The notes beneath the pieces are model-generated. The model ran no database searches and was not told where the DNA came from. It saw only the letters and a list, made by a program, of their open reading frames with translations. Source: Candidatus Schekmanbacteria bacterium (GTDB taxonomy: Bacteria; CSSED10-310; JACPHN01). Taken from it: a DNA stretch of 64,000 nt. Position numbers and translations under genes: made by a program. Of the stretch, positions 51,441-60,270 are shown in pieces (the stretch's first letter is position 1; the number at the start of each line of letters is the position of its first letter). The stretch is taken from positions 1-64,000 of the forward strand of contig JACPHN010000039.1 in assembly GCA_016188575.1 (NCBI GenBank), given 5' to 3'.

Positions 51441-53034
51441 TGGCGACTCCCCACCCGGCGGCCCCCAGAGCCTTTCGCGCGGTGTCCCGATCGCTGAACG
51501 GGAGGACTCGGTTGCCGATGATCTGTGTCGCTTCGTGGCCCTTGCCGGCCAGAATCACGGCGTCGCCGGGGGCGGCCCAGGCGATGGCCGTCCTGATCGC
51601 TTCCTCGCGATCCGGGCAGACCCGCAAGCGCGAGCGGTCACGGTTTTCGACACCCCGCAGCATGGCGGCGAGGATGTCGCCGGGGTCCTCACTGCGCGGG
51701 TTGTCGGTCGTCAAGATCGCAAGGTCCGCCATCTCCAGCGCGAGGCGCGCCATCAGCGGCCGTTTCGAAGGGTCACGATCGCCGCCGCAGCCAATTAGTA
51801 CCGCGAGGCGGCGGGGTGCGGCGGCACGGGCCGCGCTCAGCAGGCTTTCGAGCCCGGCAGGATTGTGTGCGAAATCGACGATCACCGTGAATGGCTGCCC
51901 GAGATCGACGCGCTCGAAGCGGCCGGGGACGCCGGGAAAGTCTGCCAGCGCCACGGCCGCAGCTTGCAGCTCCCCGCCCAGCGCGGAGACCACCGAAAGC
52001 GCGACGAGACTGTTTTCGACATTGAAGAGGCCAGGCATCGGCACCCGAACGGCAAATTCCTGGACGCCGCCACCCACCGCGTGCGCGCGCGCAGTATAGC
52101 ACATGTCGAAACCCTGCGGGCGCGGCTCCAGTGCCAGCAACGCGGTTTCGGAGGCGGGCGGCGGCGAGCACGGGGCAACGGCAAACGTGCACACCGTGAC
52201 GTCGCTCGGCAACACAACGCCGCCGACGCCTGGAAGGTCGCGCCAGTTCGCCGGGAGAATGGCGGTGCCCCCGGCTCGCACTCCGGCGGTCAAGAGCAGG
52301 CTCTTGGCGCTGCCATACGCGGCGATGCCGCCGTGGTAGTCGAGGTGCTCATTACCGCGCAGGTTGGTCAGGGCCGCGCACGTGAACCGCAGGCCGGCGA
52401 GACGGCGCTGCGCCAGACCGTGCGATGAGACCTCTACGGCTGCCGCCCGAGCGCCCGCGTCCCGAAGCTCGGCGAGCGCCGCTTGCAGATCGGCGGCATC
52501 CGGGGTCGTAAGCACCGGGCTCCCGAGCGGCACTTCGCGTTGCCGGCGGCCCGGGTGCCACACCCCGATCGTGCCGACGATCCCGGTGGGGATACCGAGG
52601 CGCTCGAGTATCCAGGCGGTCATGAACGATGTTGTCGTCTTGCCATTGGTGCCGGTTATTCCCGCCATCGCCAGCGCCGCTGCCGGCTCGCCGTGGGCGA
52701 GGCCCTGGGCCACCGCCCAGGCCGCGCGCAGGTCGCTGACCCGCAGCCAGGCGGGCGCGGACAGCGCGCCCGCGAGCAGCTCCGCAGCGCCGCTTCCTGC
52801 TACGATCGCGCTCGCGCCTCGCGCGATCGCCGCGCCGATATCCGCGGCCCCGTCCCGGTGGGCTCCGGGCCAGGCCAGGAACAGGTCCCCGGGCCCCAGC
52901 TCGCCCGCGTCTCTGCTCACCCGCAACACCACGACGTCGCGCGCACCCGCTCCTCCGCCCAGCTCGCAGGCCACCCCGGCCGCGGCAAGCGCCTCCTGCA
53001 GCGCGGCGACGGTAAAAGGCAGCGCCCCGGTCAC
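51430..53034 (-). CDS. murE: UDP-N-acetylmuramoyl-tripeptide synthetase (meso-DAP-adding)
   Basis: 534 residues from the GTG at 53034, overlapping the upstream stop as GTGA; the in-frame start at 53142 lies inside the MoaD-MoaE gene and is rejected. ATP loop GITGTNGKTTT at 125-135, VEVSSHGLAQRR in the middle domain and DNPRSEDPGDIL starting near residue 444. DNPR is the sequence that selects meso-diaminopimelate instead of lysine. MurE adds that residue to UDP-MurNAc-L-Ala-D-Glu. This supports a diderm, DAP-type cell wall. Confidence 0.95.
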   Translation of the reverse strand: MTGALPFTVAALQEALAAAGVACELGGGAGARDVVVLRVSRDAGELGPGDLFLAWPGAHRDGAADIGAAIARGASAIVAGSGAAELLAGALSAPAWLRVSDLRAAWAVAQGLAHGEPAAALAMAGITGTNGKTTTSFMTAWILERLGIPTGIVGTIGVWHPGRRQREVPLGSPVLTTPDAADLQAALAELRDAGARAAAVEVSSHGLAQRRLAGLRFTCAALTNLRGNEHLDYHGGIAAYGSAKSLLLTAGVRAGGTAILPANWRDLPGVGGVVLPSDVTVCTFAVAPCSPPPASETALLALEPRPQGFDMCYTARAHAVGGGVQEFAVRVPMPGLFNVENSLVALSVVSALGGELQAAAVALADFPGVPGRFERVDLGQPFTVIVDFAHNPAGLESLLSAARAAAPRRLAVLIGCGGDRDPSKRPLMARLALEMADLAILTTDNPRSEDPGDILAAMLRGVENRDRSRLRVCPDREEAIRTAIAWAAPGDAVILAGKGHEATQIIGNRVLPFSDRDTARKALGAAGWGVANES

Positions 53035-53744
53035 GTCGTCCCGCTCTCTTCCGCGCCCACCCACGAAGCCGTACCATCGGCATAGATCTCGCGCTTGAAG
53101 ATCGGCACGAGCTCCTTGATGCGCTCGATCGCCTCGCGACACGCCGCGAAGGCCGCCGCGCGATGGGGCGCCGAAACGACGATCGCCAGCGCTTCTTCCC
53201 CGATCGCCAGCGGCCCCAAACGGTGCATGATCGCAATGCCCTCGAGATCGTGGCGCTGCCGGAGGTCCCGCCCGAGGCGGTCAAGCTCCGCCGCCGCCAT
53301 TGGCTCATACGCCTCATAGGCCAGTCGCTGGACGACCTTGCCGCGGTGGCGGTTCCGTACCACCCCGATAAACTCCACGACAGCTCCCGCAGCGGGGCTC
53401 GCCACCGCGCGCCGCAGCGCTTCGAGCTGAATGGGCTCCCGGGTCAGGCCGACGTGGAAGCGCGCCGGCACCTCCGTTTCCGCATCTGTTTCGCCGGCGC
53501 CACCCGCGAGGGGCGGAAAGATCGCGACTTCCGCGCCTTCGCGCAAGGCGCCGTCGCCGCCGACGTGCTCGCGATCCACGGCGAATCGCGTCATCGACCA
53601 TCGCGTCGAAAGCACGGGCCAGGTGCGCACGAGCACCTCCCAAAGGTCACTGACGACGGGTCGATCGCCGGGAATCTCGAGCGTTTCGCTGGAACGACCG
53701 AGGAGGTCCCGATAGAACCCAAAGAAAAGAACGGTGACTCGCAT
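53031..53744 (-). CDS. MoaD-MoaE fusion, molybdopterin synthase in one chain
   Basis: 237 residues from the ATG at 53744. Residues 1-82 are MoaD: VTVLFFGFYRDLLGRSSETL, AVDREHV and the ending AIFPPLAGG, whose last glycine is normally the free C-terminus that carries thiocarboxylate. Residues about 95-230 are MoaE, with GAVVEFIGVVRNRHRGK, HRLGPLAIGEEALAIVV and the tail PIFKREIYADGTASWVG with the conserved lysine. In separate subunits MoaD must have a free GG; here it is internal (G81-G82). A similar fusion (MoaX) in mycobacteria is cleaved after GG. The stop overlaps murE. Confidence 0.9.
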   Translation of the reverse strand: MRVTVLFFGFYRDLLGRSSETLEIPGDRPVVSDLWEVLVRTWPVLSTRWSMTRFAVDREHVGGDGALREGAEVAIFPPLAGGAGETDAETEVPARFHVGLTREPIQLEALRRAVASPAAGAVVEFIGVVRNRHRGKVVQRLAYEAYEPMAAAELDRLGRDLRQRHDLEGIAIMHRLGPLAIGEEALAIVVSAPHRAAAFAACREAIERIKELVPIFKREIYADGTASWVGAEESGTT

Positions 53745-54154
53745 GTCTGTGCTCGTTAGCACCTCCGATACCCCGGGCGCAAGGCCGTGACGCCACACCT
53801 GTGCGAGTGGGGCGCGATGGTATCTGTTTGCCCCCTTCCCCGCTTGCGGCCAAGCGCCTATCCCGGTAGGCCCGTAGCTCGCCAGGTACTCAACGCCAGC
53901 GCGACATGCCACGAGCATCCCGTGCGAAGAACGAAGAGGATGGCGTTCATCGCTCGGCGGGGATCGGTGGGCGGATGGTGACAGCCGAGCGGGTGGGGTT
54001 TTCGTGGAGGCAGAAGGGGTAGGATTCTCTGAGCTCAGGTGAACAGTTACCCCTGCGGCCGGCGGGCGCGCCGCAGGTGACGGAGGCGGAGCGGCGCGAC
54101 TGCCTGGATGCGGTGGTTAGTGGGTGGCAGCGGGGGTCTGGTGACTCGAGGTCG

Positions 54155-54547: not shown

Positions 54548-54814
54548 TCAATGCGCCAGCTCGCGGAGCGCGTTGCGGTATCGCGCCATAATACCCTCCG
54601 CCACGCTTACTTGCTCGGCAAAGTCCTCTCCATAGGGTGTCAGCCGAAACCCGTCCGGTGACTTCGTCAGGCAGACGATGTCGCCGTTTCTCAGTTGGAG
54701 CTGATCAAGCACGCTTTTGGGAAGAACAATGCCTTCAGAGTTTCCGATGCGGATGATCTTCAAGATGAAAGGCCGGAAAAATTTCTTCCGAGGCGGTACA
54801 CTGATCGGCGGCAC
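54548..54814 (-). CDS. AbrB/MazE-type antitoxin-like DNA-binding protein, no toxin partner
   Basis: 88 residues. The swapped-hairpin AbrB fold is at about 17-60 with ILKIIRIGNSEGIVLPKSVL and a following acidic stretch RNGDIVCLTK, and a C-terminal helix YGEDFAEQVSVAEGI. Such proteins are antitoxins to Fic/Doc or MazF-like partners. No toxin gene lies downstream within 300 bases. The ATG at 54814 gives a basic N-terminal extension of about 17 residues compared with relatives. It may act as a stand-alone regulator or be a leftover. Confidence 0.8.
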   Translation of the reverse strand: MPPISVPPRKKFFRPFILKIIRIGNSEGIVLPKSVLDQLQLRNGDIVCLTKSPDGFRLTPYGEDFAEQVSVAEGIMARYRNALRELAH

Positions 54815-54911
54815 GAGACGAGGGACAGCCGAAGACGTCTTCAGGTGTGCTTCCGCCGGGCCGGAGCTCCACTGAGGGCGAGAAAGTCGAATCGGGACGC
54901 AAACAGGGGCG

Positions 54912-55694
54912 ATGGATCGTACCGGAAAACGCCGTGGCCCCTACTGGGCGCTGATCGAGAGCTGGGCGGTGTGGGTGGTCGCCTTTCCGCTCGCGCTGGC
55001 GGCGGCGCCGCGATCGCCGGCGCTGCTGCTGGCAATTGCCCTCGGTGGCCTGGCGATCTGCGCATACAGTCTCCAGCGGCAGATGATCGCCGCCTGGGTC
55101 GTGCGTGTCCCGTTAGCGCTCAACACCGGGATCGCTGTGCTCTTCGCCGTGCTGCTGCGCGGGCTCGACGTGGCATGGTTTCATCTGCCGCTCAACGTGG
55201 CGTTACTCGGCGTGGCCGCGTGGCTGGGCCTGGAGGTCGGCGGGCGGATCGCGCAGCGGGAGCATCTCGTGCCGCTGCTGATCGTCGTCTCGGCGGTGGA
55301 CACCTGGAGCGTCTACCGCGGGGTCTCGGCGGGGCTCGTGTCGTCCGGGAAGATCGCCTACTTTCTGCCGAGCTTGCCGCTGGCACCCGAAGCCTGGTTA
55401 CCCATCATCGGTGTTGGCGATCTTTGCGTGGTGGCGATCATACTCGCCGCGGGTCGATCCTTGGGGTTGCCGTCGTGGCGGGGCGCCGCAGCGCTCTGGA
55501 TCGGTCTGGGACTGGCGCGCGCGGTGGCGCACGCGGTAGCCGCTCCTCTTCCCGCCCTGCCGGTGAGCGCGCCGATCTATTATTTGGCACTGCGGAGAGA
55601 GCTGCCGCTATCTCGCCGGGATCTGGCGATTGCGCTCGCGTTTCTGGCGGTATTGGGAGCGGTCCTCGTGGTGATGCGCGCTATTGCACGTTGA
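54912..55694 (+). CDS. Presenilin/signal-peptide-peptidase-like multi-pass membrane protein (candidate intramembrane aspartyl protease)
   Basis: 260 residues, about eight or nine hydrophobic segments. Three motifs stand in presenilin order: D130 in VSAVDTWSVYRG (the YD-type site, with SVY as in archaeal relatives), G167-x-G-D170 in IIGVGDLCVVAIILAAG, and P214-A-L-P in LPALPVSAPIYY. Presenilin and SPP enzymes use the two aspartates and the PAL loop to cut membrane-embedded helices. KIAYFLPSLPL between the two aspartates matches the conserved proline-rich loop. Here the first motif lacks the Tyr before Asp. It converges with the sigma-54 response regulator and overlaps it by 14 bases. Without a search I treat this as a strong candidate, not an established assignment. 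Confidence 0.5.
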   Translation: MDRTGKRRGPYWALIESWAVWVVAFPLALAAAPRSPALLLAIALGGLAICAYSLQRQMIAAWVVRVPLALNTGIAVLFAVLLRGLDVAWFHLPLNVALLGVAAWLGLEVGGRIAQREHLVPLLIVVSAVDTWSVYRGVSAGLVSSGKIAYFLPSLPLAPEAWLPIIGVGDLCVVAIILAAGRSLGLPSWRGAAALWIGLGLARAVAHAVAAPLPALPVSAPIYYLALRRELPLSRRDLAIALAFLAVLGAVLVVMRAIAR

Positions 55695-57087
55695 GGCCGA
55701 GGTCGATCCCGAGCTCGCGGATCTTGTTGTAGAGGGTCTTGACGCTGACGTCGAGGAGCTCCGCGGCCGCGGCGCGCGCGCCGTCCGTAACGCGCAGCGC
55801 GGCCACTACGGCGTCTCGCTCGGCGTCGCGAACCGCGTCCTTCAGCGGGCGGATCGCCGCGCCGCAAGTGGTCGGGGTAGGCGCATTTCCTGGCGCGCAC
55901 GTCTCACCGGCCGTCGCGCCCTCGCCCGTGCGCTCGGCGGCAGGCGGCAGCACGGCGCGAGGATCGGCCAGGATCACGGCGCGCTCGATGGCGTGCATCA
56001 GCTCGCGGACATTCCCCGGCCAGGTGTACGCGCGCATTGCTGCCAATGTCTCCGCGGCGAACGGGCCGAGCTCGCGGCCATACTTGCTCTCGAACTGGCG
56101 GATAAAGTGGTGAGAGAGCGGCTCCAGATCGTTCAGGCGCGCGCGCAGGGGCGGCAGCCGGAGCGTGACAACGGCGAGACGGTAGTACAAGTCCGGGCGA
56201 AACCGGCCGGTTTGCACGGCGCTCTGAAGGTCGACGTTGGTAGCGGCGATGACTCGCGCGTTTACGTGTCGCGACGCGACGCCGCCGACCCGCGTCACCT
56301 CTCCTGACTCGAGCGTGCGCAGCAGCTTGGCCTGGGCATTGGGCGCCAGCTCTCCGATCTCGTCGAGGAAGACCGTGCCGCCGTCGCCCGCCTCGAACCG
56401 GCCGAGCTTCGCCGCGTGCGCGCCCGTAAAGGCCCCGCGCTCGTGGCCGAAGAGCTCACTCTCGATCAAGGCCTCGGGCAGGGCCGCGCAGTTTACCGCG
56501 ATCCATGGTCCGTGGCGCCGCCCCCCGCTCCAATGCAGCGCCCGCGCCACGAGCTCCTTCCCGGTGCCGGTCTCGCCAATGACGAGCACCGGGACGTCGG
56601 TGTCGGCGAGGCGCTGCATCTGACTGAAAAGGTCGCGCATCGGCGGGCTCTCGCCGAGCAGCGGCGGCGCTCCGGGGCCAAGGTCGAAGCCCGGCCGGCT
56701 GTCTCTCGCCAGGCGCAGCAGGCCACTGGCTTCCAGGCCGCGCTGCACCGCGTGCAGAAGATCCTGGTTGCGGAAAGGCTTGACGAGAAAATCGAACGCC
56801 CCGTCCTTGAGTGCGGCCACGGCGGTGTCTACCGTGCCGTAGGCGCTGATCATGATGACGGGAATCCGGTCAGCGCGCCGGCGGAGCGCGCGCAGCGCCT
56901 CCGCACCGCTGATTCCGGGCAGCTTCAAGTCCATCACCACGCCGTCGAAGGTGGCGGACTCGAGCAGTCGCAACGCGTCCTCGCCGCTGGCGCAGGCGCA
57001 CGCGGCATGGCCGGCGCGCCCCAGCACGTCGGCCAGCATTTCCCGCATGTTGGGTTCGTCGTCCACGACCAGGATGCGCGCGCTCAT
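55681..57087 (-). CDS. NtrC-family sigma-54-dependent response regulator
   Basis: 468 residues from the ATG at 57087, overlapping the kinase stop as ATGA. Receiver domain 1-120 with ILVVDDEPN, phospho-acceptor in GVVMDLKLPG and switch lysine in FLVKPFR. The AAA+ domain has Walker A GETGTGKE, the sigma-54-contacting GAFTGA loop (FGHERGAFTGAHAAK), Walker B GGTVFLDEIG and the arginine finger region. The C-terminal Fis-type helix-turn-helix ends VSVKTLYNKIRELGIDLG. It activates sigma-54 promoters when phosphorylated by the partner kinase; targets are unknown. Confidence 0.95.
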   Translation of the reverse strand: MSARILVVDDEPNMREMLADVLGRAGHAACACASGEDALRLLESATFDGVVMDLKLPGISGAEALRALRRRADRIPVIMISAYGTVDTAVAALKDGAFDFLVKPFRNQDLLHAVQRGLEASGLLRLARDSRPGFDLGPGAPPLLGESPPMRDLFSQMQRLADTDVPVLVIGETGTGKELVARALHWSGGRRHGPWIAVNCAALPEALIESELFGHERGAFTGAHAAKLGRFEAGDGGTVFLDEIGELAPNAQAKLLRTLESGEVTRVGGVASRHVNARVIAATNVDLQSAVQTGRFRPDLYYRLAVVTLRLPPLRARLNDLEPLSHHFIRQFESKYGRELGPFAAETLAAMRAYTWPGNVRELMHAIERAVILADPRAVLPPAAERTGEGATAGETCAPGNAPTPTTCGAAIRPLKDAVRDAERDAVVAALRVTDGARAAAAELLDVSVKTLYNKIRELGIDLGLNVQ

Positions 57088-59256: not shown

Positions 59257-60270
59257 ATGTTCGCAAAGACGTTCGTTCGTATCAAGATGATCGCAAGTGT
59301 TATGGGTTGCTGCCTGGCGTTGACCGCCCCCGCGGTCGCCGAGGTGCTCCACACCACTGACGGAACCGCTCCCATCATCTTCACCGCGATGACGCACACC
59401 GATGGCACGACCTATACCGCCAACAGCAGGAGCTTCCTGAGCGCGGTCGAACAGGCGCGTTGGGCGATGAGCCTCTACGACGAATACGGCCTCAAGATGA
59501 ACCTCGAGGCCTCCAAGGACTTTGCCACGGCAAATACCACGTGGAGCGTGAACATCCTCGCGGAGACCGTCGCCAACCGGCACGGTGTCGGCACCCACGC
59601 CAACGGCATCGGCGGTTCCCAGGCCCGCGAATCCACCCTCAGCTACGCCCGCAAGATCACCGAAAACAAGCGCGCCGTGGATGCTCTGGTAGGCACCGCC
59701 AACAACGTGTCCATCTCCGGAATATGCGGGCGCAGCGACTGGGTTGCGGCGGCCGCCCGAGCCCGCTTCAAGACAATCGACGCGATCACCGGCATGTGCT
59801 ACCTTTCCATGCCCGAGGAGGCCCGTCCGGACGGGTGGACGGACGACGCCATTCTCTCCACCTACTACCACGATGCCGCGCCTGTGGATTTTGCGGAGCG
59901 AATTTCCCCCTTCCGGCTCAAGGATAGCCAGGATTTCACCCCCGACGCCGACGGCGTGATCACGATCAGCAACGGCGAGCTCGGCGAGCTGGCCAGCCTG
60001 GCAGAAGGTCGCGTCTCGTGCGGCACGAGCTGCGAGCTCGGCGAGGACGATTTCCAGGTGGTGTACGACGCGATCGACCTGATCGTCGCGACGCGCGATC
60101 CCGGCCAGGTAGCGAGAATCAACATCCACATCCCCATGCGACACTTCGATGCCGCCAACGAGTCGCTGTTGCGTTCCTTCATGGCTGCCCTGAAGGCGTA
60201 CGCCGACGATGGCGCCATCGCGTTCGGCACCCAGAAGGACGTGGTGGACACCTACGAGCAGTGGAGATAA
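59257..60270 (+). CDS. Secreted protein, possibly polysaccharide-deacetylase-like
   Basis: 337 residues with a signal peptide (VRIKMIASVMGCCLALTAPA followed by VAE). The mature part begins IIFTAMTHTDGTTYT and ends with AALKAYADDGAIAFGTQKDV, which recalls the last strand and helix of NodB-type deacetylases. Other parts (THANGIGG, SWVAAAARARFKTIDA, MCYLSMPEEARPDGW) are compatible with a TIM-like barrel with few clear catalytic residues. Two cysteines in GRVSCGTSCELGED may form a disulfide. The call is tentative and the substrate unknown. Confidence 0.45.
   Translation: MFAKTFVRIKMIASVMGCCLALTAPAVAEVLHTTDGTAPIIFTAMTHTDGTTYTANSRSFLSAVEQARWAMSLYDEYGLKMNLEASKDFATANTTWSVNILAETVANRHGVGTHANGIGGSQARESTLSYARKITENKRAVDALVGTANNVSISGICGRSDWVAAAARARFKTIDAITGMCYLSMPEEARPDGWTDDAILSTYYHDAAPVDFAERISPFRLKDSQDFTPDADGVITISNGELGELASLAEGRVSCGTSCELGEDDFQVVYDAIDLIVATRDPGQVARINIHIPMRHFDAANESLLRSFMAALKAYADDGAIAFGTQKDVVDTYEQWR

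Follow-up and report, generated by a model that had tools for sequence, protein, structure and literature searches.

Presenilin is the protease linked to Alzheimer's disease, and proteases of its clan have been described from eukaryotes and archaea. A YD pair at the first aspartate is a signature of the A22 enzymes (PMC2947513). In PSEN1, the PAL motif occupies residues 433-435 (PMC7248309), and SPP/SPPL act on type II segments and have the loop between the two aspartates on the non-cytosolic side (PMC7366577). For bacteria, a 2020 review of regulated proteolysis gives eukaryotic presenilin as its sole aspartyl intramembrane example (PMC7593790). In the open-access literature searched, we found no description of a presenilin-clan protease from bacteria; the phrase "bacterial presenilin homologue" occurs in one paper, in a lipid-binding context, where it appears to mean archaeal PSH.

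The window, which is the whole stretch of DNA analysed here, comprises 64,000 nucleotides from a Candidatus Schekmanbacteria bacterium (contig JACPHN010000039.1, positions 1 to 64,000). A sequence-only reading had proposed one of its genes, here P0001, as a candidate bacterial presenilin-type intramembrane protease. The gene and its elements are as follows.

54912-55694, plus strand: P0001, a 260-residue protein with nine predicted transmembrane helices, assigned to the presenilin clan from its translation, the family profile, an AF2 model and PDB comparison
54905-54909, plus strand: AGGGG, which from its sequence may be the ribosome-binding site of P0001, a short distance before the ATG
55299-55301, plus strand: codon of D130 (in AVDTWSVY), the putative first catalytic aspartate, invariant in 19 sequences and placed in the C-terminal half of helix 116-135
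55410-55421, plus strand: GVGD, residues 167-170, with D170 the putative second catalytic aspartate; G167 and D170 are invariant, and the motif aligns to GLGD of PSEN1
55551-55562, plus strand: PALP, residues 214-217; P214 is invariant, and the motif is matched to PSEN1 PALP by profile and by structural register (233 on 452)

All three motifs named in the sequence-only reading (D130 in AVDTWSVY, GVGD at 167-170 and PALP at 214-217) are present in the translation, and the loop between the aspartates, described there as proline-rich, holds four prolines within residues 138-166. Eight or nine hydrophobic segments had been claimed, and the AF2 model contains nine helices long enough to span the membrane, with an additional short helix following the first Asp helix. 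P0001 is a genuine reading frame. When a profile is made from the remaining 18 members of the family, P0001 matches it at E = 2.6e-28, a test that is slightly circular because P0001 had contributed to profiles by which some of the 18 were identified; no other frame in the window scores, and the best of 2000 shuffles against the same profile reaches E = 8.4. An overlapping and longer frame (54695-55732, 345 aa, Arg-rich) was rejected as a shadow frame of GC-rich DNA.

A contig scan of genomes with P0001 alone as the query returned no relative. A BLAST search of 60 genomes with P0001 turned up a single true relative, the G022 protein, which shares 25% identity and has D-x-WSVY, GLGD and PGIP in the same layout. 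With a profile made from this G022 relative and its near relatives, 17 of 386 sampled bacterial genomes gave matches with E no higher than 0.01, and about 14 were accepted after the sequences were read; further members were found in the same small phyla as the earlier ones. A scan of named genomes with a closer subset of members yielded 11 loci, all in MAGs, with records including UBP13, UBP7, Planctomycetota/Planctomycetales and Actinomycetota. In seven further genomes from the small phylum to which the window belongs, no relative of P0001 was found. Two apparent matches were rejected as chance, L003 in G036 (an alternative frame) and L070 in G039 (a cation-efflux-type transporter by eye), and the weak matches L021-L023 were not accepted as members. 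The family is scattered through several lineages of uncultured bacteria. The iterated searches retrieved relatives at about 20-25% identity, and the aligned ones are about 17-26% identical to P0001, whose branch in the family tree is the longest (2.45).

Among the 19 aligned members, D130, G167, D170 and P214 are the sole invariant positions, and residues V134, G137 and P156 (P0001 numbering) are nearly invariant. As judged from the alignment, these four positions correspond to known marks of the presenilin clan: the two putative catalytic aspartates, the glycine of GxGD and the proline of PAL. With no other column invariant across 19 such divergent sequences, the motifs of P0001 are not explained by chance. 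The first aspartate is preceded by V in P0001 and by A, V, M or L in other members, and the tyrosine of YD is missing family-wide. The second motif loosens from GxGD to GxTD, GxAD, GxSD or GxPD in some members. We also observed two very divergent relatives (L020:1360-2358 and L035:7793-8821, both on the minus strand) with GPAD and GFAD, plus PALVP, which are possibly a separate subfamily.

We compared two predicted structures with the PDB, one of P0001 (13 sequences; pLDDT 78, pTM 0.75) and one, by AlphaFold, of L014, the member from G379 (19 sequences; pLDDT 85, pTM 0.83). The sequence-only reading had proposed a fold comparison with PSH and SPP as a check, and it came out in favour of the claim: with these predicted models as queries, P0001 gave 24 strong matches, all of them PSEN1, PSEN2, SPPL2a or PSH (Z 9.8-14.3; the next, unrelated, at Z 4.8), and L014 gave the same list of 24 (Z 9.3-14.1; the next, unrelated, at Z 5.6). 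A Z near 14 can arise among helical bundles; nothing unrelated exceeded Z 5.6 for either model. Foldseek placed the same proteins on top for both, with modest E-values (0.004-0.02). In the P0001 model, D130 lies in helix 116-135 and D170 opens helix 168-183, and the two helices are predicted to be adjacent. The aligned ranges end at P0001 233 on PSEN1 452 and at L014 255 on PSEN1 451. Counting back from these ends, and if the alignments are gap-free, the PAL proline (P0001 214; L014 237) falls on PSEN1 433 in both models, so that the PAL loop is in the register that a presenilin-type protein had been expected to show. In the L014 model, the first Asp helix is also followed directly by another helix, and there are two short strands, of which the later one runs into GxGD; TM6a and beta1/beta2 in substrate-bound PSEN1 resemble this arrangement (PMC7248309). 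P0001 very probably adopts a presenilin-clan fold.

Each of the described systems shares part of this picture. Archaeal PSH (MCMJR1; PF06550; 4hyc, 4hyg, 4y6k) is likewise prokaryotic and of similar size, with aspartates on adjacent helices, GxGD and PAL, and it matches the P0001 model at Z 10.3-12.1. However, PF06550 does not detect the family, the family lacks YD, and P0001 has four rather than five helices before the Asp helix and an extra C-terminal helix after the PAL helix. Presenilin-1/2 (A22A) have in common with the family the GLGD...PALP profile alignment and the best structural score (Z 14.3), and with the L014 model the post-Asp helix and the pre-GxGD strand, whereas P0001 has no nicastrin/APH-1/PEN-2 context, no YD and no long TM6-TM7 loop, and its predicted orientation is opposite. 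SPP/SPPL (A22B; SPPL2a 9k92/9k93) agree with P0001 in motif order, fold (Z up to 13.5) and predicted orientation, but P0001 is shorter, lacks YD and has no match to Pfam Peptidase_A22B.

The orientation was predicted from the K+R content of the loops, in a count that omitted the termini and the Asp loop. The predicted cytoplasmic loops are richer in 19/19 members, which gives a topology with the N terminus in and the Asp loop outside. The cyclase fusion in genome G137, described below, needs the presenilin domain to end outside, according to the count of later TM segments, and this agrees with the N-in topology. An SPP-like orientation, with the N terminus inside and the inter-aspartate loop outside, is thus predicted with a fair degree of probability. 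Since the predicted orientation is SPP-like, type II-oriented (N-in) membrane segments are the most likely substrates, and activity on such segments is what we would most likely expect of P0001 as a putative intramembrane aspartyl protease. In the proposed mechanism, peptide-bond hydrolysis inside the membrane would use a water molecule activated by D130 and D170, which are placed on adjacent helices, and the PALP loop would shape the active site. Cleaved signal peptides, shed N-terminal anchors and pseudopilin-like anchors are candidate substrates.

The P0001 gene stands alone in the window, and its neighbours are as follows.

54548-54814, minus strand: MazE/AbrB-type antitoxin-like protein, divergent and upstream of P0001
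55681-57288, minus strand: sigma-54-type response regulator, convergent, with a 14-bp overlap with P0001
57084-58754, minus strand: membrane histidine kinase adjoining that regulator

It had been suggested that the kinase and the sigma-54 regulator could form a signalling unit with P0001. We reject this because of gene orientation and lack of conservation: both genes lie on the opposite strand, tail-to-tail with P0001, and a search for the same neighbours in related genomes, which the sequence-only reading had proposed as a check, showed no kinase/regulator pair beside the gene in the neighbourhoods read. In these neighbourhoods, no single neighbour is conserved family-wide, and the conserved pairs are clade-specific (gene names here are by eye where there is no Pfam call). 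A metallo-beta-lactamase-fold gene is directly upstream in G023, G309, G389, G391 and G392 (L033, L034, L053, L055, L056), and at several of these loci it is end to end with, or overlaps, the presenilin-like gene. The neighbours are truA and purN in genomes G137 and G273 and a SIS-domain gene in G379 and G386; G379, and perhaps G253, has an FG-GAP-type exported protein nearby. A simple replacement of SppA by the family is unlikely because SppA is as common in family-bearing genomes as elsewhere (S49 in 15/19 family-bearing versus 98/117 sampled genomes). Elsewhere in the window, a frame at 53031-53918 (minus strand) fuses ThiS/MoaD-like and MoaE domains (molybdopterin synthase), and a 337-aa protein with an apparent signal peptide is encoded at 59257-60270 (plus strand), for which Pfam gives nothing at E up to 0.01.

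Two loci bear on a rival reading, in which P0001 works mainly as a sensor or scaffold. The family gene of the G022 lineage is followed by one of GAF-GGDEF-like type (domain names by eye). The second copy in genome G137 (L052:4306-7701, minus strand, 1132 aa) joins a presenilin-like domain to an extracytoplasmic region, HAMP and a class III adenylate/guanylate cyclase, and its motifs are LDLWSG, GVSD and PALP. Both arrangements, and the GVSD in place of GxGD in the fused paralogue, would suit a presenilin-fold sensor or scaffold that keeps its active-site residues in the manner of a pseudo-protease. However, both aspartates are invariant in 19/19 members, which is hard to explain without catalysis, and P0001 itself retains full GVGD and PALP. 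We regard a sensor or scaffold as unlikely, and the conserved residues suggest that P0001 is quite probably catalytic.

At two other loci, in G391 and G392 (L055:995-1966 and L056:1732-2709), the presenilin-like gene directly precedes a six-pseudopilin operon on the same strand. Pseudopilin anchors are type II membrane segments. The A24 enzymes share GxGD and the two aspartates and cleave leader peptides at the membrane surface. The position directly upstream of this operon and the common GxGD would fit a relative of the type IV prepilin peptidases and FlaK, but the PAL motif is conserved after the GxGD helix, the strong structural matches are all PSEN/SPPL/PSH, and Pfam Peptidase_A24 is matched by no scanned family member. 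FlaK/prepilin-peptidase structures are absent among the matches listed for the P0001 and L014 models, though such a relation may exist without appearing there. A kinship with A24 is highly improbable, and an intramembrane aspartyl protease of the presenilin clan is the reading that we prefer.

P0001 has no match in Pfam, and against NCBIfam at E up to 10 it gives nothing but two noise matches. None of the Pfam A22 models (PF01080, PF04258, PF06550) is above its gathering score for P0001 or the scanned relatives. PF06550, the archaeal PSH/SPP model, has no match in P0001's own genome and is over its cut-off in 0/366 sampled bacterial genomes; archaeal controls do match. Two members reach Pfam Presenilin (PF01080) below the gathering score, with E = 0.0033 and 0.013 over the GxGD...PAL region, and the best relative scores 16.7 bits against a gathering score of 34.3. 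The top PDB match of the family profile is the C-terminal fragment of PSEN1 (2kr6, E = 0.0036-0.0053), with GxGD aligned to GLGD and PALP to PALP. That no curated model reaches its cut-off would also fit an unrelated polytopic membrane protein, a transporter or channel with chance motifs, but exactly the catalytic residues are invariant family-wide and the structural match is specific in two members, and we give this explanation a very small chance.

The presenilin-clan reading is preferred because of the conserved aspartates and PAL proline, the presenilin profile matches and the two structure predictions. The claim of a bacterial protein of presenilin/SPP/PSH type is therefore supported in its broad sense, and P0001 is predicted to have the features of a GxGD protease: two aspartates on adjacent TM helices, GxGD, PAL and a presenilin/PSH fold. 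Plain A22 membership, in the strict MEROPS sense, does not hold, because neither P0001 nor any other member has the YD motif and none of them scores at the gathering level of a Pfam A22 model. At an estimated probability of about 75%, P0001 belongs to the presenilin (GxGD) clan as a bacterial intramembrane aspartyl protease, in a family separate from presenilin, SPP/SPPL and archaeal PSH as described so far. We also lean towards a new bacterial family of presenilin-clan proteases whose first motif is altered, whose orientation is SPP-like and of which one lineage carries a cyclase fusion.

Such a bacterial family would extend the presenilin clan to a third domain and would supply small, apparently single-subunit, divergent enzymes for work on the presenilin mechanism. 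If the reading is true, bacterial regulated intramembrane proteolysis would have a further branch beside the rhomboid and site-2 proteases, and the origin of presenilin would have an extra outgroup. It would also raise the testable questions of which substrates these proteases cleave in bacteria and of the reason for the fusion of one of them to a cyclase.
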